In this document: in pieces, positions 7,234 to 21,500 of the stretch
Numbering within the stretch: position 1 is the stretch's first letter
Layout: each line of letters opens with the position of its first letter
Virus record (IMG/VR): IMGVR_UViG_3300035698_003458
Coordinates: 1-23,295 of that record
Direction: 5' to 3' (one strand)
From: a virus
DNA length: 23,295 nucleotides
The notes under the pieces: generated by a model
Seen by the model: only the letters and a program-made list of their open reading frames with translations
Databases searched by the model: none
What the model was told of the DNA's origin: nothing
Translations under genes and position numbers: made by a program

Positions 7234-8283
7234 ATGGGCACCACGAATCTCGACAGACTGCGCACCATGCAGGTAAGTTCTGCCACCAAAGAGACGGCGT
7301 ATGACACCGCCCAGGCGGTGGAGACCCAGATCAACTTCAACGCGGGTGTGATCTCGAACGATGAGGTCCAGACCGTCAACGATCAGGACCACATCGGCGG
7401 CACCGAGGAAGCATCTGACGCCGAGCTGTTGGTGCAGAGCGTGTCGCTCCCCTTCGCTCAGAATCGCGTCAAGCCGCATACCCTGGCATTCACCGCCGCG
7501 TATGCTCTGGGCAGTGCGGTGTCTGCGACGGTCGCCGCGACGACATACAAGCATGTGATCACCCCGCAGACGCTCGCGCCCCAGCCTAGCTTTACGCTCG
7601 AAGGGTTGCTGGCGAGTGGCAATCAGATCAAGTATTCCGGCCTGTTCATCGACTCGTTCGGGATAGCCTTCCAGCGCGGCGCGAATCGCTACGTAAACCT
7701 CACCGGCCAGGCTTATGGCTCTGGGACGCAGGTGGCTGGGACCGCCTCCACGGCCGCTATCGCAGAGGGTGGTCTGAATGCGGCCAATGCGGCAGTATGG
7801 TTCGACGCCACCACCTACACCGGCACGACCGGCGATGACTTGGACCTTGCCACCAGCGAGCTGACGAGCGGCCCCACTGCCGACAGCACGAACGTCATCT
7901 CGCTGGACTGGCAGTATCGCAACAATATGGACACCGATTTCCTGTATGAGGTCGGTTCCGGGGTCAAGTTCGGCGGTGACGACAGACTGGCGAGGGATCA
8001 GACGCTGACGCTGGTCAGGCTCTACCAGGATGAGACCTATCGGCCCTACGTCGCAAATCAGACCGAGGTGGCGTTGCAGTGCAAGGCCAAGGGCGCGGAG
8101 ATCGAGACGGGGTTCTACTACGGCATGAACCTGATCTTTCCGCTGCTGCAGATCCAGGACCGCGACGTATCCGAGCAGGGCGGGAGGATGATCGAGACCA
8201 TCGTCTTCCACGTGCTGCAGGATGCCACATACGGCTCTGTGGTTTTGGACGTGTTCAACACGCAGACGGCTTACGCCGGGTAA
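7234..8283 (+). CDS. Major tail (tube) protein
   Basis: This 349-residue protein is expected to stack as hexamers to form the tail tube. The N-terminus carries the SSATKETAYDTA stretch typical of tail-tube proteins of this class (T-K-E-T-x-Y-G/D-T-A). Beta-rich domains follow, with the TLEGLLASGNQIKYSGLFIDSFGI block (about residues 122-145) and a long beta insertion (about 165-215). It ends MIETIVFHVL, then VVLDVFNTQTA. A strong GGAGG at 7222-7226 precedes the ATG, fitting high expression. It is larger than minimal tube proteins (about 200 residues), so an added surface domain is likely. The cassette that follows could act on this protein, but nothing in its sequence proves that. Confidence 0.75.
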   Translation: MGTTNLDRLRTMQVSSATKETAYDTAQAVETQINFNAGVISNDEVQTVNDQDHIGGTEEASDAELLVQSVSLPFAQNRVKPHTLAFTAAYALGSAVSATVAATTYKHVITPQTLAPQPSFTLEGLLASGNQIKYSGLFIDSFGIAFQRGANRYVNLTGQAYGSGTQVAGTASTAAIAEGGLNAANAAVWFDATTYTGTTGDDLDLATSELTSGPTADSTNVISLDWQYRNNMDTDFLYEVGSGVKFGGDDRLARDQTLTLVRLYQDETYRPYVANQTEVALQCKAKGAEIETGFYYGMNLIFPLLQIQDRDVSEQGGRMIETIVFHVLQDATYGSVVLDVFNTQTAYAG

Positions 8284-8479: not shown

Positions 8480-9622
8480 GTGAGCCGGAAGATTCTCCGC
8501 CGTAAACCCCTGATATCTGTAGCTATGATCGCCCGTAACGAGGCCGAAAACCTTGTGCGGGCGATTCCGTCTGCGTTTGAGTTCGCGGACGAGGTGGTGG
8601 TCCTGGACACTGGGTCCACGGATGGCACGTCCTCGGTCGCCAAGGATCTCGGCGCCCGCGTTGTCCATTATGAGTGGCAGCACCACTTTGCCAAGGCCCG
8701 CAACGTTTCATTCTCCACATGCCGCGGCCAATACATCGTCTGGATGGACCCTGACGAGGTGATCCCAGAGCCCGGCCAGCTGCGCGCCATCGCCGAGGCC
8801 GGCAAGGTGGACGACCTATCCCTCCCCACCTTCATCGGCGCGAGCTACCGTCCTGCAGAGGAAGAGATCCCCGGATACGGTCACGGCTTTCGCGTGACCC
8901 GCTCCCGCATGGTCCGCAACTGCCGTGAGGTGGCATGGCGCTTCCGTGTCCACGAGGGGCTGTATTGGTCGCGTGAGTGTGTGACTCAGACGGCAGACAT
9001 AGCCGTGCACAACCACGGTGTCTCCGCTGTCCACAGTCCCACCGGCCAGGACTACTATTTCGCCCTCCAGGTGCTGGGCCATCGCGAGGACCCCGACGAG
9101 CCGCACTACACGCTCTACCTGGCAGAGTATGCCATCATCCGCAACGGTGACCCCAAGCAGGCGCTGGACTACCTGTCCACCGTGGATCATGGCAAGCTGA
9201 CGAACCCCGAGGAGCTGGAGAAATACTGGCTGCTCGTTGGTCGGTCCTGGAAGGCGTCGGCGATCTATGCGTTCCAGCAGGGCAATGCAGGGGGGGTCCA
9301 GCAGGGCCGGGACAATGCGCTCAAGGCATACTCTCATGCCGTCGAAGCCAAGAACGCCCACCGGGGCACCGTCGAGGCGGCAACGCTCGTGCTGGAGTTG
9401 GGCGAGGCCGATACCTTCCGCACGATCCTCAAGGGCGTGCTGACGGATACACCCGGCGACCTACAGGCCCTATCCATGCAGCGCATCGCCGACCGCCACC
9501 AGGACCCGGCCGTCCTCGCCCAGGCCATCATGGATTACCAGATTGCCACAGCGCGCGGCACGTCCCACGATGACGCCGTGGAGTCGGTCATGGATCACGG
9601 CAAGGAGGCGAGTGATGAGTGA
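8480..9622 (+). CDS. Glycosyltransferase family 2 with helical C-terminal extension
   Basis: This 380-residue cytosolic enzyme should transfer a sugar from a nucleotide donor. The GT-A domain occupies about residues 9-200: ISVAMIARNEAENL (12-25), VVVLDTGSTDGT (39-50), FAKARNVSF (70-78) and the metal-binding DPDE at 90-93. The usual DADE is changed to DPDE, which keeps both acids. RVHEGLYW (about 155-162) matches the acceptor-side motif of WaaE-like GT2 proteins, where RVHE is common. The remainder is helical and TPR-like (DNALKAYSHAVEAKNAHRG). Translation starts at GTG 8480 behind AAGGAGG with a six-base gap. It is the first gene of the cassette and overlaps the next gene by eight bases. Donor and acceptor are unknown. 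Confidence 0.85.
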   Translation: MSRKILRRKPLISVAMIARNEAENLVRAIPSAFEFADEVVVLDTGSTDGTSSVAKDLGARVVHYEWQHHFAKARNVSFSTCRGQYIVWMDPDEVIPEPGQLRAIAEAGKVDDLSLPTFIGASYRPAEEEIPGYGHGFRVTRSRMVRNCREVAWRFRVHEGLYWSRECVTQTADIAVHNHGVSAVHSPTGQDYYFALQVLGHREDPDEPHYTLYLAEYAIIRNGDPKQALDYLSTVDHGKLTNPEELEKYWLLVGRSWKASAIYAFQQGNAGGVQQGRDNALKAYSHAVEAKNAHRGTVEAATLVLELGEADTFRTILKGVLTDTPGDLQALSMQRIADRHQDPAVLAQAIMDYQIATARGTSHDDAVESVMDHGKEASDE

Positions 9623-10412
9623 GCGCGTGAGAGTCGTCATACCGGCGCGGGTCAGAGATTCTGGCGACGAGAGATGGCGCAACCTGTGCGCGTGCCTGAC
9701 GGCATTGAGGGCCGCAGCATACAAGACGGATGCACTCATTGAGGCGGTCGTGGCCGAACATGACAACGAGTGTCGCCTCCGCGCGATGCTCGATAGTTTT
9801 GGGGTGGCCCATGTGCCCGTGGGAGAAGGCGACGGGGAGACGCCATTCTCGCGTGCCAGGGCGCTGAACGCTGGCGTTCGTGCCGAGGTGTTCGAGGGGA
9901 CACCGAACGACGACAGCGGCGCTTTGGGTCACCCCACACTGCTCTGTCTGCTGGATGCGGATATCTGGGTCCGCGACCACTGGCTGGATCAGTGCGTCAA
10001 GGCCATTCGGCAATCCCGCGAGGCCGATAACTGGTCTGGGGCCGTGCTGCCCTATGACCGCGCCTTCTATCTGGACCAGGAGTCCACCAGGAGGCTACGG
10101 GATCACACCGGGCCCCACTCCGACATCCGCAATCTCAACGGCACGCCATACCACTCCCAGGGCGGCTGTATCTGGATCGATCCCGAGCTATACGCGAAGA
10201 TCGGCGGCCACTCTGAGGCGTATGTCGGCTGGGGATCCCTCGATAGGGATTTCTTCGCCAAGCTACTGGACGCCAAGGTCAACGTGCAGCGCATCCCACA
10301 GCCGCTAATCCACATGTGGCACCCTGAGCCGGACAAGTCCAACGCCCAGGCCAACTCGGGGCGATACAAGGCCGCCAACATCATCTCAGAAGAGGACATC
10401 GCCAAGCTATGA
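9615..10412 (+). CDS. GT-A glycosyltransferase with galactosyltransferase-like C-terminus
   Basis: This 265-residue protein starts at ATG 9615, six bases after GGAGG at 9604-9608, rather than at the upstream in-frame ATG 9543. It opens with RVRVVIPARVRD, a divergent GT2 start. FSRARALNAGV (78-88) and LLDADIWV with the DAD metal site at 114-116 follow. The later block GGCIWIDPELYAKIGGHSE followed by GWGSLDRDFFAKL (about 182-215) is the pattern of the GT7 C-terminal domain, in which a G-W-G-x-E/D-D motif sits at the active site. HMWHPEP (about 233-239) may supply a metal-binding His. It overlaps the previous gene by eight bases and the sulfotransferase-like gene by ATGA. A hexosyl or N-acetylhexosaminyl transferase is the likely class. 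Confidence 0.75.
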   Translation: MSERVRVVIPARVRDSGDERWRNLCACLTALRAAAYKTDALIEAVVAEHDNECRLRAMLDSFGVAHVPVGEGDGETPFSRARALNAGVRAEVFEGTPNDDSGALGHPTLLCLLDADIWVRDHWLDQCVKAIRQSREADNWSGAVLPYDRAFYLDQESTRRLRDHTGPHSDIRNLNGTPYHSQGGCIWIDPELYAKIGGHSEAYVGWGSLDRDFFAKLLDAKVNVQRIPQPLIHMWHPEPDKSNAQANSGRYKAANIISEEDIAKL

Positions 10413-10975
10413 ACCGGGCAATCATCGGGCTGGGCCCTGGCCGCTGTGGCTCCGCGTCGTTCGCTGCCCTGCTGGGCTCACAGGACGGCGTGGTGGCGAC
10501 GCACTCATGCCCGGTGTATCCGCATGGCCGGGAAGGCTGCAGCGGCATACGGGCGCCCTGGGCTCGCGTGGAGGACCTTCTGGAGGATCCCAAGGCCACT
10601 GATGCCAAAGCTGTGGTGGATTCTGGTCCCTACTGGCTGCACATCCTGGTTGACGGTGCGGACAAGCCGGGGCGCATCTGCGTGCTGTGGCGTCCCGTCT
10701 CGCACGTGGTGACATCGATGGTCAGGACGGACTACTGGTCCAAGCTCTCCCTCGTTGACGGCTTCGCGGCCATCCACACGTCTGCCTTGGATTACGTCAG
10801 AGGCTACTACGACAAAGCCTGCCGGCTGGCCTGCCAGTGGCCGGATATCGTCCGGTTTGTGGACGCCGAGAGGCTGTCAGATGCCCAATACACCGACGAC
10901 CTGCTGGAATGGCTCGAAATACCGCGCACGTCGGCGGACATACACCATCTCAACCGGAGTGACTCCCATGCTTAA
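10409..10975 (+). CDS. Sulfotransferase-like P-loop protein
   Basis: This 188-residue protein begins IIGLGPGRCGSASFAALL. The G-P-G-R-C-G-S-x-S loop (residues 9-17) matches the 5'-phosphosulfate-binding loop of PAPS-dependent sulfotransferases (family form G-x-x-R-x-G-[ST]-[ST]). ICVLWRPVSHVVTSM (about 90-104) resembles the 3'-phosphate-binding R-D/x-P...S segment. It is shorter than the usual 250-300 residues, so it is a minimal or divergent member; a kinase-like P-loop is less likely because the loop lacks the Walker GK[ST]. It overlaps its upstream glycosyltransferase by ATGA and the next by eight bases, so it is translated as part of the glycan cassette. Sulfate transfer to a sugar hydroxyl is the simplest role, with PAPS supplied by the host. 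Confidence 0.65.
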   Translation: MNRAIIGLGPGRCGSASFAALLGSQDGVVATHSCPVYPHGREGCSGIRAPWARVEDLLEDPKATDAKAVVDSGPYWLHILVDGADKPGRICVLWRPVSHVVTSMVRTDYWSKLSLVDGFAAIHTSALDYVRGYYDKACRLACQWPDIVRFVDAERLSDAQYTDDLLEWLEIPRTSADIHHLNRSDSHA

Positions 10976-11822
10976 GACTCCCCCCGTTGCGCAGGATGCC
11001 GCCGAGATCATCGCCCGGGGCCGAACGCCCGACATGATGACCAGCCAGGTGACGGCACTGCTCTACACGTCGCATAGGGTGTCGGCGTTCCAGCGGCTGA
11101 TGGACTCATGGGGGAATCGGCGGATGCCGTTGATGATCGCCGATGCATCTGATGGTGGATACGTCAGAGGGCAGGACATCCCGGATGGGTGCCTCACTAT
11201 CCCAGTGGAGCGGGAATACCCCATGGGCGCCTGCCTGAGAGAGCTCCTGAGCCTGGTCGCGACCCCATACTTCACCGTCCTAATGGACGATTGGGTCATG
11301 TCGCCCATGATCGCTATCGAGAAGCTGGCGGCGGTCTGCGAGTCTGGCGGATACACTCTCGTCTCTGGGCGCGTCCTTGATCTACCCAAGACCGCGGGTC
11401 AGGCCAGCGCCATCCGGCAAGACATCGCCATCGCGTCGATCGCCAAGACCTCCGACGACAGCGACGACATGGAACTGCGGCTGGCTCCTGTGGATTGGGA
11501 CCCCGGCGTCAGCGTCGCCCCGGCCAGCATCGTCTCGTCTCACTACGTCGCCCGCACAAGCTCCATCCTCAACCGCGGCGGGTGGTCGCCCAATCTCGCC
11601 AGTTGCCACCATCTGGACCTGTGCCTCTCTCTCCGGGACGATGCTTACCCCGTTGGTGTGACGGGTATCTCGATGGTCAACCATGGGCCCACGGATGCCA
11701 TGCCGGCTTACGACGCCATGCGGGCCGAGGGGATCCATCTCGGGCGCGCTGGGCTGATGCAGAAATATGGCGTCAAGCGCGTTGTCGGGCTGGAGATGTG
11801 GGAGAGTGGGGAGCCATCATGA
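10968..11822 (+). CDS. Putative GT-A fold glycosyltransferase
   Basis: This 284-residue protein starts at ATG 10968, eight bases after GGAG at 10956-10959; a longer in-frame opening from 10755 would run deep into the sulfotransferase-like gene and is rejected. VTALLYTSHRVSAFQRLMDS (about 24-43) is the first strand and helix of a GT-A fold. LMIADASDGGY follows, then ATPYFTVLMDDW, with M106-D107-D108 in the place of the DxD metal motif. Later SSHYVARTSSILNRGGW and the HHLDLCLSL block (about 185-222) match the acceptor and catalytic region of GalNAc-transferase-like relatives, where an E/H-D pair is expected. HLDL replaces the usual EDxxF. The ATGA overlap couples it to the next small gene. Substrate unknown. 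Confidence 0.65.
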   Translation: MLKTPPVAQDAAEIIARGRTPDMMTSQVTALLYTSHRVSAFQRLMDSWGNRRMPLMIADASDGGYVRGQDIPDGCLTIPVEREYPMGACLRELLSLVATPYFTVLMDDWVMSPMIAIEKLAAVCESGGYTLVSGRVLDLPKTAGQASAIRQDIAIASIAKTSDDSDDMELRLAPVDWDPGVSVAPASIVSSHYVARTSSILNRGGWSPNLASCHHLDLCLSLRDDAYPVGVTGISMVNHGPTDAMPAYDAMRAEGIHLGRAGLMQKYGVKRVVGLEMWESGEPS

Positions 11823-12055
11823 GCGCGGAACTGATCACCAAGGCCAGGGCAGACCTCTGGGAGATATCTCCACCGGATAAAATACCAGAGTCTCTCTTTG
11901 ATGCGCTGGAGGTGCCGCGCGGCGGGGGTCTGTGCAGTCTGAACCCTGCGTTTTGGGATTTCGTGACGAGCCGAGGCATGGTACACAAGGCGACAACGAT
12001 GAAGACGCTCCACGAACTCCTCGATCTCCGCGAGGAGTTCGAGAATGCCGAGTGA
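11819..12055 (+). CDS. Small hypothetical protein in cassette
   Basis: This 78-residue protein is not recognised. It starts at ATGA 11819 behind GGGGAG at 11808-11813. It is mostly helical, with an acidic helical tail MKTLHELLDLREEFENAE. There is no signal peptide or membrane segment. Its 3' coding end doubles as a perfect hairpin that covers the ribosome site of the next gene, so it may serve partly as a regulatory leader peptide-like gene. The only support for coding is tight coupling on both sides. Confidence 0.5.
   Translation: MSAELITKARADLWEISPPDKIPESLFDALEVPRGGGLCSLNPAFWDFVTSRGMVHKATTMKTLHELLDLREEFENAE
12013..12041 (+). promoter_or_regulatory. Perfect 11-bp hairpin covering a ribosome binding site
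   Basis: CGAACTCCTCG (12013-12023) is the exact reverse complement of CGAGGAGTTCG (12031-12041), with a 7-nt loop. The 3' arm contains GAGGAG (12032-12037), the ribosome site for the ATG at 12045. Folded messenger would block initiation of the Cys/His gene unless ribosomes translating the upstream gene open the stem, a classic translational-coupling arrangement. Confidence 0.6.
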
Positions 12056-12347
12056 TCATGGCCGCGACCCCAGGTGGCTCGAATGGTTCGCCAAGCGCCC
12101 AGAGTCCCAGGAGTGCCTATTCTGCACCCTCCAGGCGGCGGACACCTGTCACATTGAGCACGGGTCAAACCGCAAGACGGATTTCCTGGTCTACCGGGCA
12201 TGCCATGACCACCACATGGCCGTAGACCACCAGCCGCGCCACGGAGAGGTCAAGATCCTACGAGAGCAGGAGATCCGGCACGCCCTGGCAGAGTGGTGCA
12301 CGTTTACGCTGTCGAGGCTCATTCTGGAATACAGGGGCGAGATATGA
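12045..12347 (+). CDS. Small Cys/His putative zinc protein, HNH-like
   Basis: This 100-residue protein carries C24-x2-C27, then C35-H36-I37-E38-H39-G, then C53-H54-D-H56-H57, plus further histidines. The order CxxC ... H-I-x-H-G ... C-x2-H-H resembles compact HNH/treble-clef zinc modules of phage origin, in which the first His region is catalytic and the C-x2-H/C pair binds zinc. The catalytic Asn of a classic HNH is not evident, so nuclease activity is uncertain and a structural or regulatory zinc finger is possible. It overlaps the previous gene by 11 bases and the next by ATGA. Its ribosome site is buried in a perfect hairpin. A homing-type or DNA-repair origin would be unusual within a glycan cassette. 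Confidence 0.5.
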   Translation: MPSDHGRDPRWLEWFAKRPESQECLFCTLQAADTCHIEHGSNRKTDFLVYRACHDHHMAVDHQPRHGEVKILREQEIRHALAEWCTFTLSRLILEYRGEI

Positions 12348-12520
12348 CCATCGGGGACGCAGTTGCGATTGTAGGTGCTGCCTGGGCTTTAGCATGGATC
12401 GTAGTGGTGATCATCCGGGAGCCTGGGCGAGTGCTGGGCATCATGGCGGACAAGCCCGTGGTGGATCCGCGCGAGACGAAAGTGTTCGACGCTGCACGCC
12501 GCACAACTCGCCCAGAGTGA
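12344..12520 (+). CDS. One-helix membrane protein
   Basis: This 58-residue protein starts at ATGA 12344. Residues 3-25 (GDAVAIVGAAWALAWIVVVI region) form one hydrophobic helix followed by a basic-acidic tail (IREPGRVLG, then DPRETKVFDAARRTTRPE). By the positive-inside rule the C-terminus would face the cytoplasm. The function is not recognised. In this cassette it could anchor partners at the inner membrane, or be an unrelated small phage gene such as a holin-like or exclusion protein. Confidence 0.5.
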   Translation: MTIGDAVAIVGAAWALAWIVVVIIREPGRVLGIMADKPVVDPRETKVFDAARRTTRPE

Positions 12521-12531
12521 AAGGCGATCCC

Positions 12532-12765
12532 ATGAACGCAGGGCGACTGGCTGAGCTTATCGCCAAGTCCCACAGGGGCAGTCTCACTCCAGAGGAGCAG
12601 GGGGAGCTGGATCGGTGGCAGATGGAGTCGATAAGCGCCGTCTCGGGAACCTCTGCGGCTTACCGCGACGATGCTGCGCGCATGATAGCGAAGGAGGTTG
12701 ACGGGGTCATCATCGAGAAATACAAGGCCATCTACGGCACCAATGGCGAGGCGGTCACCCCATGA
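12532..12765 (+). CDS. Small helical hypothetical protein
   Basis: This 77-residue protein is not recognised. It begins at ATG 12532 shortly after an AAGG-containing site; a longer reading from 12394 overlaps the membrane-protein gene and lacks a good ribosome site. The sequence is helical and charged (RLAELIAKSHRGSLTPEEQ, then ARMIAKEVDGVIIEKY). It has no Cys, membrane or signal segment. The end is coupled by ATGA to the first CgeB-like glycosyltransferase. Confidence 0.5.
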   Translation: MNAGRLAELIAKSHRGSLTPEEQGELDRWQMESISAVSGTSAAYRDDAARMIAKEVDGVIIEKYKAIYGTNGEAVTP

Positions 12766-13736
12766 GAGTCCTGTGGCTCACCATCGACCAGACTACCGCA
12801 GTGATGCAATATTTTCTCACGCTCCGAGAGGAGTGCACCAAGCAGGCCGAGCTTGCTGGGTGGGATATCGACGTGCGAATGCGCGACGTGCCCAACCCGC
12901 GCGGTTGGTGGCTGAATAAGGCAGACCGCGATGAGGCGTGGTGCCCGGCCATCACAACCGCCGGGGAGTTGAATAGTTACGACCTCGTCTATACCGACTT
13001 TGGCAGCGCGTTCCAGTGGGAGCCGTGGACGGAATACCGCGGCGTCTGGGCTCAATCTATTGACGACACGCACGGGCCCATCAGGCAGGATAGGATCAAG
13101 CGCGCCACGAAGGAGGGCGGTGAGAGTTGGATTGCCCATCAGGCGCCGTTCAAGAAGCGTTTCCCTGGAGCGGCATACCGATGGCTCCCATTCTCTGCCG
13201 ACCCGGAGGTGTTCAAGCCCCTCGTGCCGTGGGATGAGCGCGAGCGTGGCGTGTTACTGAGTGGGGCACTGAGCCGGGGCGGATACCCGGTCCGGTGGGC
13301 GACAAGGGCAGCTCTTCAGGGCCTCCCGTGGTTCCACTATATCGAGCGCCCCCAAGAGGTTCAGGACGGAACCACGGGCCCGCGTGGTGTCGATTACGCG
13401 CGGTGGCTGTCTTCCTACATCGCCGGGGCGTCATGCTGCTCGGTAAACGAGCACACGCTCTGCAAGACGTTCGAGATATTGGCATGCAGGACCGCGCTAC
13501 TACAGGACCGGGTGCCGGAAATGGCCGAGCTTGGCTTCCGGGCTGGCAAGCACTACGAGCTGATCGAGAAGGGTAGCGACATCAAGTCCATTGCAGATGA
13601 GCTTGTGCGCGACGATGCGCGAGCGGAGGACATAGCCAGTGCTGGGATGGAGCACGTGATCGCCAACCACACCATCCGGCACCGTGCTGCGTTATGGATG
13701 GAACTCGTGGAAGCTGCTGTCAGGGAATCAAGATGA
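12762..13736 (+). CDS. GT-B glycosyltransferase, CgeB-like (copy 1)
   Basis: This 324-residue protein has the two-domain look of CgeB/Glyco_trans_1_2 enzymes. It has an N-terminal Rossmann start MRVLWLTID, a linker at PFSADPEVFKPL (about 146-157), and a C-terminal domain with a YARWLSSYIAG segment and CSVNEHTLCKTFEILACRTALL. The K-x-F/Y-E-x-x-A-x-x-x-A-L-L motif there carries the donor-phosphate-contacting Glu region. ELGFRAGKHYELI and a terminal helix ending NHTIRHRA complete it, matching the family ending (H-T-x-x-x-R). It is coupled by ATGA on both sides. It is a clear tandem paralogue of the next gene, sharing the start, linker, G-P-R-G-x-x-Y segment and ending. Donor sugar unknown. Confidence 0.8.
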   Translation: MRVLWLTIDQTTAVMQYFLTLREECTKQAELAGWDIDVRMRDVPNPRGWWLNKADRDEAWCPAITTAGELNSYDLVYTDFGSAFQWEPWTEYRGVWAQSIDDTHGPIRQDRIKRATKEGGESWIAHQAPFKKRFPGAAYRWLPFSADPEVFKPLVPWDERERGVLLSGALSRGGYPVRWATRAALQGLPWFHYIERPQEVQDGTTGPRGVDYARWLSSYIAGASCCSVNEHTLCKTFEILACRTALLQDRVPEMAELGFRAGKHYELIEKGSDIKSIADELVRDDARAEDIASAGMEHVIANHTIRHRAALWMELVEAAVRESR

Positions 13737-14716
13737 GAGTCCTATGGCTGACGGTTGACAGAAGCAAGAGAGCGTTGCAGTGGTTCGATCCCATGCGCTT
13801 GAAGGCCATGGAGGCCATGGAGCGCGCCGGCTGGGAGTGCGTGGTCAAAGTCCGGGATACACCAAATCCTATCAAGGCATGGGCTGGGGGTGCTATCTGT
13901 GACCCAAGCGAGGCGCCGCCGATGGTCACCAGGGGAGAAATGGCATCCTTCGATTTCGTCTATACTGATCTGTTGGCGGCGTTCATGTGGGAGCCCTGGG
14001 AGGCGTGCAAAGGCGGCAAGGCTTGCCTCATGGCCGATCAGCACGGGACTCTGGTGCGGACAGTCCACGAGACGGCACAGCGGCTGGGGATAGGCGTCTG
14101 GTATGTCTACCGCGATGCCCTGAACCGTTTCTGGCCCGATCTACCGCGGGGCTGGTGGCTGCCTTATGGCTATGACCCGGAGGTATTCTACCCACGGGTG
14201 GCGTGGAAATGCAGGACGCCAGGGGTTTTGATGACCGGAGAGCGGGGCGGAGGTTTATATCCGGCACGAGAGGAGGTGCACAACGCGCTGGCGCGCTATC
14301 CTTGGTATGCCCAGATACCCCGACCGAAAGAGACGCCAGAGGGGGAAACGGGCCCGCGCGGGGCATCCTACGCCACATTCCTCTCGGCGTATATGATGTC
14401 GGTGGCAACGTGCTCCGATTACAACTACACGGTCACCAAATACTACGAGATCGCCGGGGCTGGGACGGCGCTGCTGTGCAATTCAACCCCTGAGATGTCG
14501 GATCTCGGATTCGAGCCGGGCAAGCACTACATACCCATTGGCCCTGGAGGAAGTGCCCTTGCCGAGCAGATCGGCGGCATCGTCGGTGAGTCTGCCTATA
14601 TTGGAGACATCGCAGAGGCCGGCCACGAGCTGGTCAAGTCGCGTCACACCACAACCCACCGGGCCGCACAATGGATGGAACTGGCCGAGAAATGTGTGAG
14701 CAATTCACGCTCCTGA
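13733..14716 (+). CDS. GT-B glycosyltransferase, CgeB-like (copy 2)
   Basis: This 327-residue protein is the tandem paralogue of the preceding enzyme. Shared landmarks are MRVLWLTVD, a W-E-P-W segment about residues 85-90, LPYGYDPEVFYP as the domain linker, ETGPRGASYATFLSAYM, TKYYEIAGAGTALL, MSDLGFEPGKHY and HTTTHRAAQWMEL. It starts at ATGA 13733; an in-frame opening at 13694 lies inside copy 1 and is rejected. The two copies have diverged widely between landmarks, so they probably use different acceptors or donors rather than being a recent duplication. The 3' end overlaps the next gene by about 25 bases, longer than the usual 4-nt coupling here. Confidence 0.8.
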   Translation: MRVLWLTVDRSKRALQWFDPMRLKAMEAMERAGWECVVKVRDTPNPIKAWAGGAICDPSEAPPMVTRGEMASFDFVYTDLLAAFMWEPWEACKGGKACLMADQHGTLVRTVHETAQRLGIGVWYVYRDALNRFWPDLPRGWWLPYGYDPEVFYPRVAWKCRTPGVLMTGERGGGLYPAREEVHNALARYPWYAQIPRPKETPEGETGPRGASYATFLSAYMMSVATCSDYNYTVTKYYEIAGAGTALLCNSTPEMSDLGFEPGKHYIPIGPGGSALAEQIGGIVGESAYIGDIAEAGHELVKSRHTTTHRAAQWMELAEKCVSNSRS

Positions 14717-15450
14717 TCAAGACCATCTGGCGCCCGGAGAAGTGCTTACGGTTGCTGGAGTCTGTGCGCAAGGAATACCCGGCCATGCCTGTCGTGGTGG
14801 TGGACGATGGCCCAGACCACAAGGCGCTCAAGTCCCAGGACGTCTCCAGGCTTCGCACAAGCTACCACCGGTTCCCGTATGATGTGGGAATCGGCACCTG
14901 CTACAACACTGCCATCCGCGACATCATCACCACGCCATATGTGATCATCTGCGACGATGACAACGTGTTCCACGAGACCGACATAAGTCTTTTTGCACCC
15001 CACCTGGACGATGGGACCTTTGACGTGCTCGGCGGGGCCGTGATGCGCCGGTTCCGCGGCGCGCTACAGAAATACGTGGGCACGTTCGAGATCAAGAGCC
15101 ACAAAAACGGCCGCGAGGTCATCATGTGGGCGATCAACATCAAGGATCTCAGGGTTCCGATCCACGCCCACTACATAATGAACTTCTTCGCCGCTACCCG
15201 GGAGGCCCTGGCGCTGTGCCCGTATGATGAGAAGCTGAAGGTCTGTCGGCACGAGGACTGGTTCCTGATGGCCTACATGAAGGCCCTGAAGGTCGGATAC
15301 CACCCGGGGCCGCTGATCATCCACGACCCCGAGGGGGGGCCGCGGGATCCACCGGAATACAGCGCCCTCAGATCGGGCCGGTTCAAGGACTTCCGGGCAA
15401 TGTTCGGTGAGAAATGGGGCCTGCGACCTGATGGACTGAGGAACCCATGA
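14692..15450 (+). CDS. Glycosyltransferase, GT-A fold (B4GALNT/GT2-like)
   Basis: This 252-residue protein starts at ATG 14692; ATG 14671 is an in-frame alternative seven residues upstream with no better ribosome site. The order is GT-A: FTLLIKTIWRPEKCLRLLES (5-24), VVVVDDGPDH (about 35-44), GTCYNTAIRDI and VIICDDDN with the D88-D89-D90 metal motif. Then comes a later His-Glu-Asp block at 187-189 (CRHEDWFLM) that matches the catalytic-base region of GalNAc-transferase and chondroitin-synthase-like enzymes. All expected active-site acids are present, so it should be active. It is coupled to the small basic gene by ATGA. It resembles animal B4GALNT-type enzymes as well as bacterial GT2s. The product sugar cannot be told. 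Confidence 0.8.
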   Translation: MCEQFTLLIKTIWRPEKCLRLLESVRKEYPAMPVVVVDDGPDHKALKSQDVSRLRTSYHRFPYDVGIGTCYNTAIRDIITTPYVIICDDDNVFHETDISLFAPHLDDGTFDVLGGAVMRRFRGALQKYVGTFEIKSHKNGREVIMWAINIKDLRVPIHAHYIMNFFAATREALALCPYDEKLKVCRHEDWFLMAYMKALKVGYHPGPLIIHDPEGGPRDPPEYSALRSGRFKDFRAMFGEKWGLRPDGLRNP

Positions 15451-15653
15451 GGGCCAAGCGCGCCAAGCAGATCAACCGCCTTGCGAAGAATGAGGCGGCC
15501 CGGTATGTCCGGCAGAAACTGCCCTTGTGGCGGCGTCTGTATCTGTGGTTCCGAGCTGACCCGGAGCCCCGGACAAAGCGCCATGACGTGGCCAGCGCCC
15601 GCAGCAACGCGCGGTATCTCAAGCGGTGGTATCACCGCGACCGCCAGAAGTAG
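15447..15653 (+). CDS. Small basic hypothetical protein
   Basis: This 68-residue protein starts at ATGA 15447 and is extremely rich in Arg and Lys with few acids (RAKRAKQINRLAKNEAARYV, then LPLWRRLYLWFR). A short aromatic/hydrophobic patch (LWRRLYLWF, residues about 26-35) is flanked by positive charge, as in peripheral membrane or nucleic-acid-binding peptides. It is the last gene before a 179-nt non-coding gap. No family is recognised. Confidence 0.45.
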   Translation: MRAKRAKQINRLAKNEAARYVRQKLPLWRRLYLWFRADPEPRTKRHDVASARSNARYLKRWYHRDRQK

Positions 15654-15703
15654 TTGCACGATCAGCCAGAATTGGCGACCTTTCCAGCAGCACCCTTACT
15701 AGT

Positions 15704-15744
15704 GTCCGGCCAGTACCCGCCGCCAGGCGATTGAGCTGCCGGAC
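15704..15744 (+). promoter_or_regulatory. Stem-loop in gap before epimerase gene
   Basis: The gap 15654-15832 holds no credible gene. GTCCGGC (15704-15710) pairs with GCCGGAC (15738-15744) over a 27-nt loop, and GCCA/TGGC (15665-15676) can form a small stem. No convincing -10 box is seen; TTGGCG at 15672-15677 has no good partner. The gap ends with AGGAGG at 15822-15827, five bases before ATG 15833. It splits the cassette into two translation blocks. Confidence 0.35.
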
Positions 15745-15832
15745 CACGGGAACCACAACATCATCACCCCGTCGCTGGTCCATAGGTGCACTCCGCACAA
15801 ATAGACCCGCACGGACAGCGCAGGAGGCAGCA

Positions 15833-16660
15833 ATGCGCATCCTCGTCACAGGCGGATCCGGCTTCATCGGATCGACGCTGGTCCCGGCTCTGCAGGCCAG
15901 GGGTCACGAGCCTATCGTGTATGATCTCGTTGAACCAGAAAAGGGCATCCCCCGTGTCATTGGGGACGTTGTGGACGTGGTCGCTCTATACAGAGGGCTG
16001 GATACGGTTGACGCGGTAATCCACCTGGCAGCAGTCTCCGGCGTTGCAGATTGCGATGGCGACCCAATCCGCGCGGCGCGGGTAAACGTGGGCGCGGAGG
16101 TGCTGACGGCGGCCGCCAGGATGGGCGTCAAGAGCCTGGTCTACGCCTCTTCCATGGCAGCCGCCAGGGTCGATAGTTGGTATGGGGCCACCAAGAAAGC
16201 GCTGGAGGCGCTGGCGGAAGGCATTGCGGCCACGGTGGACATGGATTGCATCGGGCTGCGTTTCTCGAACGTCTACGGCCCCGGCTCTTGGGCCAAGCCG
16301 TCTGTGGTGGCTACGTGGATGCGCGCGGCGCTGCAGGGGAAGCCGCTCCGGGTGTTCGAAGATGGATCACAGACGCGCGACTTCGTCTACGTGGCGGACG
16401 TCTGCAGGGCCATCATCCTGGCGCTGGAGAAGGGTCTGGAGTTCGGCGACGACGGCTACGTCAGGACGGGGCGCAATACCAGCATACGCGATCTGGCGGC
16501 CATAGTGGCGAACATCACAGGCGCCGATGTCGAGGGGTGTGACATCTCCGACTATGAGGCGCCGAACGCTGTGAGAGGCCGATACGTAGCACTGGAAGAC
16601 GGCCTATCCCTCACCTGGCAGTGGTTCCAGCATATGCGCGGTCAGGAGGCCCTGGCATGA
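15833..16660 (+). CDS. NAD-dependent sugar epimerase/dehydratase (extended SDR)
   Basis: This 275-residue protein has the extended SDR hallmarks. TGGSGFIGS is at residues 6-14 for NAD(P) binding, HLAAVSG follows at about 64-70, VYASSM (103-108) supplies the serine, and Y117-x3-K121 (YGATK) is the catalytic pair. RFSNVYGPG precedes the substrate-binding region and SQTRDFVYVADVC comes next. These are typical of UDP-glucose 4-epimerase-like and nucleotide-sugar dehydratase enzymes, though it is somewhat shorter than GalE (about 335) because the segment before YxxxK is compressed. It starts at ATG 15833 behind AGGAGG; a longer reading from 15626 has no ribosome site. It is coupled by ATGA to the SQD1-like gene. 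It likely makes a nucleotide-sugar donor for the cassette transferases. Confidence 0.85.
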   Translation: MRILVTGGSGFIGSTLVPALQARGHEPIVYDLVEPEKGIPRVIGDVVDVVALYRGLDTVDAVIHLAAVSGVADCDGDPIRAARVNVGAEVLTAAARMGVKSLVYASSMAAARVDSWYGATKKALEALAEGIAATVDMDCIGLRFSNVYGPGSWAKPSVVATWMRAALQGKPLRVFEDGSQTRDFVYVADVCRAIILALEKGLEFGDDGYVRTGRNTSIRDLAAIVANITGADVEGCDISDYEAPNAVRGRYVALEDGLSLTWQWFQHMRGQEALA

Positions 16661-17862
16661 GGGTCTATATCTGCGGCATACACGGATACCTCGGCTGGTC
16701 TCTCGCCGTGCACCTGACGGCCCGCGGGCATGTGGTCGGCGGCACGGACACCGGATACCGCGAGGACTGGGTGCACGAGGTTGGCGGCCACAGTGGCATC
16801 CCCACGGCGCCATGGGCTGTCAGGGAATCCACGCTGGGCCTTGGCGACGTCGATGTTACCGACGTTACGGACATGGGTGAGATCCGCGAGAACCTGGAGG
16901 ACTTCAAGCCCGACGCGGTGGTGCATCTGGCAGAGATGCCGGCCGCGCCCTACTCCATGCGCTCGCCGGAAGCGGCCTACCGGACCTACGAGAACAATGT
17001 CATGGGCACGCTGGCTATCATGCTGGCGCTCAGGGACATGGACCGGTCTGTGCACGTGCTGAAGCTCGGAACAATGGGAGAGTATGGGACGCCGGCCTGC
17101 CCGATCCCAGAGGGGGAGTTCCCAGACGGATCAATGTGGTGGAACGGCCGTTGCGCGAGCCCCCAGAAGACCATGCACGACATCGGCGGCATGCAGTTCC
17201 CGCGCAAGCCCGGCTCGCTCTACCACGCCACCAAGGTCATCGACTCGACCACGGTGGAGTTCTTCTGTCGGATGTGGGGCATGCGCTCCACTGACGTGAT
17301 GCAGGGCGTGGTCTACGGGACTCAGATCCAGGAAATGATGGACGATGACCGGCTGGTGACCCGCTTTGACTACTGTGAGACGTTTGGGACGGCCCTGAAT
17401 CGTTTCTGCGCCCAGGCTGTCCTCGGGCTGCCCATCACGCCCTATGGCCTCGGCCACCAGCGCCGCGGGTTCCTGCCCCTGTGCGACTCCATGCAGTGCA
17501 TGACGCTGCTGCTGGAGAAGCCACCCGCGGCTGGCGAGTATCGCGTTGTCAACCAGCTTGAGGATGTCTACGATGTGACCGAGCTGGCGCAGAAGGTGCA
17601 GAAGGCAGCATCGGATGTGATCGGGAGCAAGTCGGAGATCCAGCACGTCCCCAACCCTCGAAAAGAGTCCGAGTCCCACGATTACGAGGTGGACCACTCC
17701 AAGCTCAGAGAATTGGGATACGTCCCCACGCAGGACATGGACACCCAACTGCGGCAAATGATCGAGCATCTGGCAGAGCACAAGGACCGCCTGGCAGAGC
17801 GGTCTGATTCCATCACCCCCACCACGCTCTGGGATCAGGGCGAGAAGGAGCGGCAGCTTTGA
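16657..17862 (+). CDS. sqdB: UDP-sulfoquinovose synthase (SQD1/SqdB/Agl3 family)
   Basis: This 401-residue protein matches the plant, bacterial and archaeal UDP-sulfoquinovose synthase family along its length. It has GIHGYLGW (7-14) in the NAD-binding loop where SQD1 has GGDGYCGW, and APYSM followed by ENNVMGTL. LKLGTMGEYGTP carries catalytic Thr139, and SLYHATKVIDS carries Tyr189 and Lys193. QGVVYG, FGTALNRFC, RRGF with SMQCM, and VPNPRKESESHDY then match too, as does the terminal DRL...SITPTTLW tail. Family members convert UDP-glucose and sulfite to UDP-sulfoquinovose through a 4-keto intermediate. It starts at ATGA 16657 behind AGGAGG. A family relative with altered substrate remains possible, but the catalytic Thr-Tyr-Lys set is intact. 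In cells the product feeds sulfolipid or archaeal S-layer glycans; in this phage it would feed the cassette transferases. Confidence 0.85.
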   Translation: MRVYICGIHGYLGWSLAVHLTARGHVVGGTDTGYREDWVHEVGGHSGIPTAPWAVRESTLGLGDVDVTDVTDMGEIRENLEDFKPDAVVHLAEMPAAPYSMRSPEAAYRTYENNVMGTLAIMLALRDMDRSVHVLKLGTMGEYGTPACPIPEGEFPDGSMWWNGRCASPQKTMHDIGGMQFPRKPGSLYHATKVIDSTTVEFFCRMWGMRSTDVMQGVVYGTQIQEMMDDDRLVTRFDYCETFGTALNRFCAQAVLGLPITPYGLGHQRRGFLPLCDSMQCMTLLLEKPPAAGEYRVVNQLEDVYDVTELAQKVQKAASDVIGSKSEIQHVPNPRKESESHDYEVDHSKLRELGYVPTQDMDTQLRQMIEHLAEHKDRLAERSDSITPTTLWDQGEKERQL

Positions 17863-18269
17863 CCGAAAACGCAGGATTGATGACAGGCAAGGGCGCGGAG
17901 GTGCGCGTCAAGGTAGACCTGGAGAGCGGTGGCCACATCGTGGCGGTATTCCCGTCGCATGGGGAGCCGGCCTTCGAGAAGGCCAAGAAAGCTCTCCTCA
18001 ATTCGCGCTTCGAGCAGCGCGGCAGGAAGACCAGGAACCTGTCCACGGAGGCGCGGTGCACCTTCTTCGACAAGACCTGCGAGAGTATCGAGGGATGGCA
18101 GCACAGGCAGGATGACGGCGCCACAGTGGACGCCATGACGCTCCCTGACTGGAGATCGCGATTCCCGGTCAACCTGAAGGTCTCCATTGTCTCCACGCAG
18201 TTCGAGGAGATGGACTCCCTCCAGGATGAGGACCGCGAGGATTTACCGGAAGCGTCCGACGAGGACTGA
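17859..18269 (+). CDS. Putative tail assembly chaperone, short form (gpG-like)
   Basis: This 136-residue protein lies two genes before the tail tip and directly before the tape measure, the standard site of the tail assembly chaperone. The best start is TTG 17859, eight bases after AAGGAG at 17845-17850 and overlapping the SQD1-like stop as TTGA; an ATG at 17880 is an alternative with a weaker site. It has strands near the start (EVRVKVDLES, HIVAVFPSHG), helices (EKAKKALLNSRFEQRG), and a very acidic end (EDREDLPEASDED). The acidic tail just before the stop is typical of G-type chaperones. A second coding frame begins inside its 3' end, consistent with frameshift expression of a longer form. 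Confidence 0.65.
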   Translation: MTENAGLMTGKGAEVRVKVDLESGGHIVAVFPSHGEPAFEKAKKALLNSRFEQRGRKTRNLSTEARCTFFDKTCESIEGWQHRQDDGATVDAMTLPDWRSRFPVNLKVSIVSTQFEEMDSLQDEDREDLPEASDED

Positions 18270-18589
18270 GACTCCAGTCCCTGACAGACGCACAGGTTGA
18301 GGCGCTGGACGATGGGGAATACGATGAGCTGCACGACATCAGTCCAGAGTATGTCTTCGCCACGAACTTTCTATCGCGCCGGGAGTTGGGTCTGGCTCCC
18401 GGCCGCGATGAACTCACAGCCCGCCAGGAAGAGGTCATCATGTTTGTGGCGGGTGAGCGGCAGCGGCAGCAGCGAGAGAAGGTTCCGGAGACCAAAGAGG
18501 ACGCGGAGTTCCAGGACGAGGCGGAACCGGACGAGATGGATGTGAGCGACGCTGATCTGCTGACGATACACCACAAGCGCGGGCGATAG
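18230..18589 (+). CDS. Tail assembly chaperone extension (T-like), reached by -1 frameshift
   Basis: This frame is open from 18230 to the TAG at 18587-18589 and reads as protein (SLTDAQVEALDDGEYDEL, then YVFATNFLSRRELG, then TARQEEVIMFVAGERQ). It has no ATG or GTG in its first half and no ribosome site; the first plausible initiator is TTG 18386, which would cut off clear coding sequence. It lies in the -1 frame relative to the short chaperone and overlaps it by about 40 bases, exactly the lambda G/GT layout. The frameshift product would be roughly 240 residues. Its last codon abuts the tape measure ATG. The short and long forms would coat the tape measure and recruit the tube protein during tail assembly. 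Confidence 0.65.
   Translation, partial: GPRGFTGSVRRGLRLQSLTDAQVEALDDGEYDELHDISPEYVFATNFLSRRELGLAPGRDELTARQEEVIMFVAGERQRQQREKVPETKEDAEFQDEAEPDEMDVSDADLLTIHHKRGR
18239..18245 (+). other. Candidate -1 frameshift site of the tail chaperone
   Basis: The overlap of the two frames (18230-18269) contains GGATTTA, read GAT TTA in the zero frame. Re-pairing the TTA tRNA one base back to TTT is favourable, but the GAT position is poor, so this is not a canonical X-XXY-YYZ heptamer. A possible stimulator is GGACTG (18263-18268) pairing with CAGTCC (18275-18280), 17 bases downstream, longer than the usual spacer. The exact slip site is uncertain. Confidence 0.4.
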
Positions 18590-21500
18590 ATGGCGACCAC
18601 CGAGCAACTGATCATCAAGGCATCGTGGGAAGGTCGGGACCTGGAGCGCGGGGCGCAGAAGGGCAAGAAGGCCCTGACGGATATGGACAAGGCCGCCAGG
18701 TTCGCCACCCGCGCGTTCATCGCTCTCGGCGGTGCTATGGCTGTCAGGCAGCTCGTTCGCTATGCTGACGAGTGGACCAACCTCAACAACAGGCTGCGTC
18801 TCGTCACCGACAGCACGGAGGGGCTCGAGCAGAAGCAAGGCGAGCTTTTCGCGGTGGCTCAGTCCACCCGGTCTGAATACGCCGCTACGGTGACGCTCTA
18901 TTCCAGGCTGAAGAAAGCCACCGAGGAGCTCAACGCATCCGACAAGGACCGGCTGGCTGTCACCAAGGCCCTGACTCAGGGCTTCATGGTGTCTGGCTCT
19001 ACTGCCGAAGAGGCACGCAGCGCGGTCATACAGCTGAGTCAGGGTCTGGCCGCCGGCGCGCTCCGGGGCGAGGAGTTCAATTCGGTCAACGAACAGGGCA
19101 CGCGCATTATGAAGGCCCTGAAGGACCAGCTCGGGTTGACTACCGGGCAGCTCCGAGAGCTGGCATTCGCCGGCAAGCTCACCACGGAGACGGTGTTCAA
19201 CGCGCTCTTGAGTCAGTCGAAGCTGATCAATGAGGAGTTCCAGACCATGGACGTAACGGCATCTCAGGCCGCCACGACCATGGCTAACTCCATGCTGCAG
19301 GCGATTGGCAAGATATCAGAGGCAACCGGCGTCACGAACCTGTGGGCGGAGGCCATGATGGGCGTTGCTAAGGCCGCTGACGATGTGGTCGCCGCGCTGG
19401 ATACTGGCGATGGCGCCGGGTTCGTGTCGCCGGCTGAGATAGAGAAGCGGTCCCGGGCTTCCGGCTACTTCGGCCCACAGGCGGCAAGCCCAACCGGCCT
19501 TTCTGTCGAGGCCGCCAATCGCGCTTTTTCCATCAGCGGCGACCCGATGAGGAGCGGGTCCACCGGGCCCATTGACATAGACAAACTCGCCGACTTGCTC
19601 AGTCAGCGCATCTCAGTAGAAGGCATTGTGAACTTCCTTGCCCGCGCCTCTACTCCTGCAGGGCTCGCCGGTATGTTGCCCGGTGCCCCCACGCCTCCTC
19701 TCGACGCCCGATTCAGCGCGGCTAATCTCGTGCCCAGGGATGACAGGCTGGCACCGGGAAACGTTGACCGCGCCATACTGCGGATGCTGGAGCTTGGTGG
19801 TGGTATCTCTGGACCGTCTGACATCCGGCGCCCTGGCGGCCAACCTGCCCTGATCCCGGATAAAGCTGCCGAGCTGGCTCTGTTCGACACGATGGCATCC
19901 GCCCTAAAGGCCGCCATCCGCGCCACTGAGGTCCGCGGCGGCGGTATTAATGTCCCGACGTCCTTCCCCATAGATGTGCGGTCGGAGCAGAATGACCAGA
20001 TGCGGGTAGCTGCACAGGAACGCATCGGAGAGGACCTGCGCAAGGTGCGGCGCCAGCAGCAGATGCAGGAACTATCCGATCTAAAAGCATCCGGGTTAGA
20101 TCGGATAGAGGTGGCCCGTAGGACCAACATTGTCCAGATGGCCGTGCTGCAGGACAGTCAAGCCGTCGAGGCGCTGAGATTTCAGGCGACCGGCGTGGGC
20201 GGGGACGCGATCCGCGAGTTGCAGGCGGAAGAAACCGCCCTGGCGAAAACACGGGCCGAGGCGAGAATCGCCGCGGCGTTTGTCGCCCAGGAGTCCGGGG
20301 TAACTGCCAAGGCGCTTGCCAAGGCGCTGCTGGATGAGGCGCAGCTCAAGGCGGATACCGTCCAGGCCACCCAGGCGGTTGTCAATGTGATGGCGCAGCT
20401 CAACCCAGAAATGGGGCTATTGGGGGCCTCCCTGCAGTCGCTCGTTGGTGGCGATTACATAGGGGCGCTGCAATACTCGTTTCTTGGAGTAGTTGACGCA
20501 TTCGGGGACCTGTCCAGTGCCTCCGACGCCTACGAGCAGCACCTGATTCGGATGCGGGAGATTTACAACTCCCAGCTCCAAACCACCATCGATCTGACCA
20601 ACTCGATCCTGGGGAACAACGAGGCATACCGCCAGGCCAAAGAGGACGCGCTGACCCCCCTGCTGGACGAGTTCGCGCGCCTCCAGACCGTATTCGGCAC
20701 AACCCACGAGGCCGTGCTGGCGTTCATCGACTCGCTGAATGTGGTCGGTGGCCAGCAGACGCTTGGATATTGGACGGGCAATGCCGAGCGCATGGCGCTT
20801 CTTGTGAGTAATTTTTCCGATATGTGGCCGGGTTTTGTGGCAGGATTTGAGGATGGAGCGTTGGGTCTGGAGGACTTCATAGAAGAAATTGCTATCCTGC
20901 TCGGCCCCGAGTCCACCTTTGCCGATCTGACGCGCACCATCTTTAGCCTGGTGGATGTGACTGACGAGTGGAATAGCTCGCTCCAGCGCCTGGATGATCG
21001 CGCCACCCGCGCAGCCTTCGACCTTGAGGAAATGGCGCTGCGCCAGCGCGCCTCTGCGGCCTTCAGTGCTGCCGGTGGCGACGTGGCCGCACAGTCCGCC
21101 GTCTGGCAAGACTTCCAGTCCCAGCTTGCTGATCTGATCCGCAGAGAGCGCCTGGCCGCGTCTTCAGGCTCCACGGCAGCCGCAGGGGGCACAACGACAG
21201 GCGGAGGCACTACGACAGGCGGTACGGGCTCCGCAGGCGGCACAGTGGCCACTGGCGGCGATCCTGCCGTAGTCGCTGGGTCCTTTGCTGACGTGTTCGA
21301 CCTGTCAGGGCTTGAGCTGATCGAGGTGCCGTGGTCTGAGGTAATAGAGCTGATGACGGGGCGCGTTGACATCGCGTCCGAGTTCAGCGTGTGGCATTGG
21401 TCCGGGGTCGTGGACATCTCCTATCTACGCTCTGGTGATATCGGCCCGATGTATGAGGTGCCGTGGTCTGAGGTCGTGCACTTCGACACGGCGCCAGCCG

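Follow-up and report, generated by a model that had tools for sequence, protein, structure and literature searches.

A predicted glycosylation cassette with a sulfotransferase-like gene in the tail gene module of a virus contig

Sugar and sulfate enzymes in the tail gene module

The stretch of DNA analysed here (the window) is a virus contig of 23,295 bases, IMG/VR record IMGVR_UViG_3300035698_003458 from end to end, that carries a siphophage head–tail region with connector genes. Between the stop of the tail tube gene (8283) and the start of a tail assembly chaperone-like gene (17859) lie 14 open reading frames (ORFs), nine of which encode sugar or sulfate enzymes: four GT-A glycosyltransferases (GTs), two CgeB-like GT-B enzymes, one sulfotransferase-like protein, one epimerase-type short-chain dehydrogenase/reductase (SDR), and one SDR related to SQD1, all on the plus strand (Table 1). 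We think it likely that these genes form a phage-encoded cytoplasmic glycosylation cassette that most likely decorates a virion protein, with the tail tube as the first candidate. What the sequence itself establishes is which genes are present, to which fold families they belong, how they are ordered, and that a diverged sister phage keeps the site. An earlier sequence-only reading had described the segment as a complete candidate system for a sulfur-bearing glycan. All the components that it named are present at 8480–17862 on the plus strand, far above chance, and its count of about six GTs (four GT-A-like and two GT-B) is right; its names "uridine diphosphate (UDP)-sulfoquinovose synthase" and "sulfotransferase" are statements of homology.

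Twelve of the 14 junctions overlap, by 4–25 bp. The cassette is not an unbroken run of sugar genes, because five small ORFs lie inside it and a 179-bp gap lies upstream of the SDR pair. The nine large enzymes have no membrane-spanning stretch. The GTs at 10968–11822 and 14692–15450 align to the same ORFs in two other contigs (L083 and L085), and the GT at 14692–15450 has an earlier in-frame ATG at 14671. The nearest solved structures of the first SDR are NAD-dependent epimerases and UDP-glucose 4-epimerase, and its YxxxK motif is present as YGATK.

The gene order is shared with the sister contig L083 (19.6 kb), which has scaffold, capsid (62% identical), connectors, tail tube, sugar cassette, tail chaperone (45%), and tape measure (40%) in the same succession. 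Both ends of the cassette, namely the first two GTs and the pair formed by the SDR and the SQD1-like SDR, are kept in L083, and the middle is swapped; among the genes in the middle of the L083 cassette are those for an ATP-grasp protein and a DegT aminotransferase. Since the site and both ends are kept and the middle differs, the cassette is, as judged by gene order, an old and stable resident of the tail site with a changeable middle. The weakly HNH-like ORF in mid-cassette might be the remnant of a mobile element that explains the swapped middle.

A scan of IMG/VR with the single sequence of the SQD1-like protein returns nothing. A scan with a two-sequence alignment returns 93 contigs with SQD1-like proteins, of which 80 were studied, and the gene occurs in these in at least three settings. 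In one of them, the gene lies inside a head–tail module with GTs or other sugar genes (L083, L005/L006, L007, L009, L010, L011, L017, L024, L051, and L176). Linkage of the genes in relatives, on which the sequence-only reading depended, is therefore found in L083 and in at least nine further contigs with an SQD1-like gene in a head- or tail-module sugar cassette. The major capsids of this setting that could be typed belong to phrog_247, 1005, and 334, versus 283 in the window, and the portal of L176 belongs to phrog_145. L176 carries SQD1-like, CgeB, and GT genes together with two relatives of the sulfotransferase. An SDR of the window's type adjoins the SQD1-like gene in eight viral loci. Among cellular loci, it does so in 7 of 47 with a Pro-type SQD1-like protein versus 1 of 32 with an Arg-type protein, as defined below.

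The other two settings are a DNA-metabolism module (about 40 loci) and the neighbourhood of NeuA/NeuB/NeuC-like genes (about 10 loci). The SQD1-like SDRs of the former (L012–L052, about 40 viral loci; for example, L049 4949–11000 and L030 3994–5708) form an all-viral clade with an SH-aLRT value of 100. They lie outside sugar clusters, in a conserved module with an AAA_24 ATPase, ParB/DNA methylase, deoxycytidine monophosphate (dCMP) deaminase, and nuclease- and polymerase-like genes by eye; one idea is that this SDR serves DNA hypermodification. In the latter setting (L077 1963–6523, and also L056, L060, L061, L062, L076, L080, and L082), the SQD1-like SDR lies directly beside NeuC-, NeuA/PseF-, and NeuB-like genes. 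In several of these loci a ribonucleotide reductase follows, and DNA-metabolism genes adjoin. By gene content, the Neu-type loci encode a nonulosonic-acid-like pathway with an SQD1-like enzyme.

Table 1 Features of the cassette and of the flanking virion genes.
Feature	Coordinates	Strand	Evidence
Portal			phrog_145, 2.8e-99
Scaffold			phrog_206
Major capsid			phrog_283, 6.7e-74
Major tail tube protein (flank, candidate acceptor)	7234..8283	+	PF18906 Phage_tube_2, 29.6 bits (cut-off 27)
GT-A (GT2) glycosyltransferase, tetratricopeptide repeat (TPR)-like C-terminal part	8480..9622	+	PF00535 2.3e-18; 41% identical in L083
GT-A glycosyltransferase, galactosyltransferase-like C-terminal part	9615..10412	+	PF02709 3.3e-9, phrog_1721 7.6e-10; 33% identical in L083
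Diverged P-loop (PAPS-type) sulfotransferase, 188 aa	10409..10975	+	Fold; PAPS-site residues
GT-A-like glycosyltransferase, diverged	10968..11822	+	No Pfam match; BLASTP to translation of 14671-15447, E 5e-7
Small ORF, 78 aa	11819..12055	+	4- and 11-bp overlaps with adjacent ORFs
Small Cys/His-rich ORF, weakly HNH-like	12045..12347	+	phrog_96 HNH E 0.015, phrog_1588 E 0.011 (weak)
58-aa ORF, hydrophobic N-terminal half could span membrane once	12344..12520	+	By eye, unscored
Small ORF, 77 aa	12532..12765	+	Overlaps next gene by 4 bp
CgeB-like GT-B glycosyltransferase 1	12762..13736	+	PF13524 1.7e-14; relatives in L083, L084, L085, L176
CgeB-like GT-B glycosyltransferase 2	13733..14716	+	PF13524 9.4e-11; relatives in L083, L084, L085, L176
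GT-A (GT2) glycosyltransferase	14692..15450	+	PF00535 2.9e-10 (scanned from 14671); 40% identical in L083
Small basic ORF, 68 aa	15447..15653	+	39% identical ORF at matching place in L083
Extended SDR, sugar-nucleotide epimerase/reductase type	15833..16660	+	PF01370 3e-39; 40% identical in L083
SQD1-like SDR, Pro at Arg101 position	16657..17862	+	NF041015 9.9e-130; 41% identical to SQD1
Tail assembly chaperone-like gene (flank)	17859..18269	+	45% identical to L083; between SQD1-like gene and tape measure in window and L083
Tail tape measure protein (flank)	18590..22477	+	phrog_3519 3.9e-80 plus 18 further tape measure families

The SQD1-like and sulfotransferase-like proteins

The SQD1-like protein matches SQD1 over its full length (phmmer 1.1e-80, residues 2–394). 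It retains the catalytic residues (Thr, Met, Glu, Tyr, Ser, Tyr, His, and Lys), including T139, M140, E142, Y143, Y189, and K193, and has the motifs TMGEYGTP and YxxxK. The residue equivalent to Arg101 of SQD1/Agl3 is Pro95. In Agl3, mutant protein R101A is inactive, and dehydration needs Glu and Tyr (PMC4388408). The mutagenesis primer of that study, A-E-Q-(R to A)-S-A-P, fixes the alignment with E-Q-R-S-A-P of SQD1. Pro occupies position 101 in 78 of the 80 viral relatives and in 47 of the 80 cellular relatives. Arg is present in every row of the SQD1 group (24 of 24) and of the Agl3 group (11 of 11), and the other 126 have Pro; a single Ser is the exception outside the Arg groups. Position 101 is the sole position that is common to both Arg groups and absent from the other rows, which were split from the Arg rows by residue 101 itself. 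In the tree, some Arg rows group with SQD1 and the others with an Agl3-type protein from Sulfolobales, and a single Arg clade is rejected (approximately unbiased test, p-AU 1.4e-4). By this tree, the two biochemically proven enzymes have Arg in common yet are not nearest relatives. The window protein groups with that of L003 (97*), then with Pro-type rows only, outside the SQD1 and Agl3 groups.

The family model NF041015 gives the window protein 432.9 bits over its full length, with a cut-off of 575. Bacterial Arg-type members also score below the cut-off (484–495), one Pro-type archaeal protein scores above it (578.7), and the ranges of the Pro-type cellular proteins (495–579) and the Arg-type proteins (484–621) overlap. 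We dropped the cut-off as a criterion for UDP-sulfoquinovose synthase because bacterial Arg-type proteins fail it too. Annotation as UDP-sulfoquinovose synthase on the basis of NF041015 is independent of the residue that Agl3 needs.

Since the SQD1-like enzyme lacks Arg101 and lies outside both groups of UDP-sulfoquinovose synthases, we do not class it as such a synthase, and sulfonation is unproven. Of the name given by the sequence-only reading, the homology to SQD1 stands. The enzyme may be of the UDP-sugar dehydratase type, since the Glu and Tyr needed by Agl3 for dehydration are kept. The DegT aminotransferase of L083, which would use a keto-sugar, fits the dehydratase-type reading. By eye, the acid/base pair typical of dehydratases is absent from every SDR of L083.

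With the 188-aa protein itself no family match is obtained, the Pfam sulfotransferase families included; its relative in L022 (BLAST 8e-8) passes the cut-offs of PF13469 and PF17784. An AlphaFold2 model built from a nine-sequence alignment has a predicted local distance difference test score (pLDDT) of 78 and a predicted template modelling score (pTM) of 0.79. A Foldseek search with this model lists only sulfotransferases in its first 11 rows (best E 3.2e-4), and VIA gives human tyrosylprotein sulfotransferase a Z of 13.5 (168 residues, 3.2 Å) versus 11.0 for the best kinase. The family profile matches tyrosylprotein sulfotransferase 1 (1.6e-3) and a bacterial sulfotransferase (3.1e-3); its top row is a designed helical repeat protein, which we rejected as a chance match. 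A P-loop kinase reading was likewise rejected, since kinases reach a lower Z (11) and there is no Walker Lys in the P-loop. Sulfotransferases that use 3′-phosphoadenosine-5′-phosphosulfate (PAPS) have a 5′-phosphosulfate loop and, for the 3′-phosphate, an Arg and a Ser in the pattern R-x7-S. The protein's GPGRCGS loop, R95, and S103 (R-x7-S) align to tyrosylprotein sulfotransferase 1 via the nine-sequence profile. The nine-sequence alignment shows no variation at R12, R95, and S103, where contacts with PAPS are expected. The assignment of the protein as a sulfotransferase is thus supported by its modelled fold and its putative PAPS-binding residues.

Relatives of the sulfotransferase lie in the structural modules of further phages, whether or not an SQD1-like gene is present (L169, L171, L173, L175, and L176). 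Those of L171 and L173 adjoin GT2 genes, and the two copies in L176 lie beside the SQD1-like, CgeB, and GT genes. In L169, a 541-aa frame (9995–11599) among neck and tail genes consists of a sulfotransferase part followed by an apparent GT-A domain (by eye; no NCBIfam match). In four other SQD1-like contigs (L011, L024, L058, and L064), a P-loop ORF that resembles sulfotransferases lies no more than about 3 kb away; these matches are below the Pfam cut-off.

Several features of the two proteins weigh against the glycosylation cassette proposed here. The SQD1-like protein departs from residues that are 93–100% conserved elsewhere (D10H, R37E, S102A, N192T, and D233C). The sulfotransferase is shorter than its relatives, has Ser33 where 7 of 8 relatives have Glu, and has no relative in the L083 cassette; the profile aligns position 33 with the Glu pair of tyrosylprotein sulfotransferase, where this Glu, an acidic residue after the P-loop, is the catalytic base. 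It is therefore conceivable, though somewhat unlikely in our view, that the protein is inactive or acts on another target, for example a tyrosine of a virion protein, as its closest folds, the tyrosylprotein sulfotransferases, would suggest; against this, the PAPS-site residues are intact, the frame is intact and coupled to its neighbours, and relatives are linked or fused to GTs. We regard it as unlikely that the SQD1-like enzyme is a true UDP-sulfoquinovose synthase despite the Pro and that the glycan is both sulfonated and sulfated. Its full-length homology to SQD1, the retention of every other tested catalytic residue, including the Glu and Tyr for dehydration, and the failure of NF041015 itself to separate Pro-type from Arg-type proteins would all fit such an activity, and the SQD1 relative of a Mu-like virus has previously been annotated as a UDP-sulfoquinovose synthase (PMC7785012). 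On the other side stand the inactive R101A mutant of Agl3 and the presence of Arg throughout two separate tree groups, and the NeuA/NeuB/NeuC-like neighbours of Pro-type genes and the DegT aminotransferase of the sister point to ordinary deoxy- or amino-sugar pathways. Of the complete sulfur-glycan system proposed earlier, the sulfotransferase stands by its fold and PAPS residues, qualified by Ser33 and its absence from the syntenic sister, and the sulfonating enzyme does not; the claim of two separate ways to add negative charge is weakened accordingly. For a cassette of the virion-glycosylation type it is unusually rich, and the sugar chain that it probably makes may well be sulfated.

Probable target of the cassette and known systems

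The nearest solved structures of the first GT are GmaR (1.4e-15, 98 residues) and SunS (4e-8); the SunS model TIGR04195 matches at 5e-8, below its cut-off. Both GmaR and SunS transfer sugars to protein or peptide acceptors. Only the GT2 domain takes part in the homology (98 residues for GmaR), and by this likeness the first GT is the best candidate for the enzyme acting on protein.

In the glycosylation pathway that we propose, the starting material would be a UDP-sugar of the host (probably UDP-glucose), from which the SQD1-like SDR and its partner SDR would make an unusual nucleotide sugar. Oxidation at C4 with subsequent dehydration fits the conserved motifs TMGEYGTP and YxxxK, and addition of sulfite is doubtful without Arg101. 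The SunS/GmaR-like GT would then attach the first sugar to protein, the remaining GT-A and GT-B enzymes would extend a short chain, and the P-loop sulfotransferase would transfer sulfate from PAPS onto the chain.

The linkage of several GTs to structural genes, kept in relatives, argues for a virion target, as the sequence-only reading had supposed. We favour a virion protein over the host envelope because the first GT is SunS/GmaR-like, the nine large enzymes lack membrane stretches, polyprenyl machinery is absent, and the cassette lies in the tail module. It is quite unlikely that the cassette alters the envelope of the host, say to prevent superinfection or in lysogenic conversion. Phage GTs often modify O-antigen (as in PHROG "moron" annotations), and sugars of the cell surface are conceivable targets for the two CgeB-like enzymes; but the cassette has no polyprenyl-phosphate transferase, flippase, polymerase, or large membrane protein, and it sits amid tail genes in an arrangement that is repeated in unrelated phages. 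The Gtr-type set for O-antigen conversion (GtrA-type flippase and large membrane GT) is not in the cassette, where a GtrB-like match reaches only E 0.031, and neither integrase nor lysogeny genes are found in the 23,295-nt fragment. Glycosylation of phage DNA, giving hypermodified bases, seems to us very unlikely. Virus-encoded DNA-hypermodifying GTs exist, according to the citation of Pyle 2024 in PMC12619734, and a large viral clade of SQD1-like proteins lies in replication modules beside deoxynucleotide enzymes; the window, however, has no base-modifying enzyme or replication gene, its SQD1-like protein is separate from that clade, and the gene set is in the tail module. Some points tell against a virion acceptor: no glycan or acceptor site is visible in the sequence, neither the tail tube nor the capsid has an obvious Ser/Thr-rich tail, and the record is a 23-kb fragment, so the target may be another.

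Glycans on the capsid and tail tube of mycobacteriophages are made by phage GTs, as reported by papers citing Freeman 2023 (PMC12619734, PMC11600133). By the same accounts, those phages have few GTs, cluster O having three tandem GT genes and an O-methyltransferase. In contrast, the window has six GTs, dedicated nucleotide-sugar enzymes, and a sulfotransferase, all inside the tail gene order. With SQD1, SqdB, and Agl3, the SQD1-like protein shares full-length homology and the two motifs, and differs by the Pro and its position outside the Arg groups. The UDP-sulfoquinovose synthase gene of a Mu-like virus from the Cariaco Basin was reported on its own, as an auxiliary metabolic gene whose supposed role lies in the N-glycosylation of the host (PMC7785012). 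It represents the same enzyme family in a phage, with a proposed role in glycosylation, whereas the window's gene is part of a tail-module cassette. PF13469-type sulfotransferases in OM43 phage genomes, whose function was called unclear (PMC10580990), have the same fold in tailed phages; the window's lies among GTs in a structural module, and one of its relatives is fused to an apparent GT. Viral "UDP-sulfoquinovose synthase" genes (PMC7785012) and phage sulfotransferases (PMC10580990) are thus each known already. In the open-access PubMed Central literature, we found no report of their linkage with GTs in a structural module and no phage paper uniting a sulfotransferase with virion glycosylation.

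It is conceivable, though in our view rather less likely than not, that in several lineages of tailed phages the phage's own tail or capsid receives a glycan that is sulfated and possibly also sulfonated, through dedicated nucleotide-sugar enzymes, GTs, and PAPS sulfotransferases encoded inside the structural module. If so, phage particles would carry charged sugar coats made by their own genes. Such coats would have a bearing on the charge of the particles and on how they adsorb, persist, and are recognised, and a concrete job would be found for the phage sulfotransferases, whose function has been called unclear. One residue cleanly sets the two groups with the proven enzymes apart from all others, and the viral proteins, and many cellular ones, that bear the annotation UDP-sulfoquinovose synthase may therefore make something else.

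Flanking virion genes

The assignment of the tail tube protein rests on PF18906, the AlphaFold model being too poor (pLDDT 31); the protein is about 59–60% identical to that at the same place in L083. The nearest isolates are only about 30% identical to the window in the portal. The SQD1-like protein, the tail tube, and the first CgeB-like protein have no match among 50,697 phage records. Promoter and terminator scans of the window give nothing clearly above shuffles.

In the chaperone region (17859–18589), the first ORF stops at 18269, and a second, start-less open frame (LQSLTDAQVEALDD...) runs to 18589 in another frame and has a counterpart in L003. The arrangement resembles the programmed frameshift commonly seen in the tail chaperones of siphophages. 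Within the C-terminal part of the tape measure gene (21738–22282), a 138-bp repeat (SWSRVF...IEAFGVTTWGSVMDP) occurs about four times, after a linker rich in Gly and Thr.

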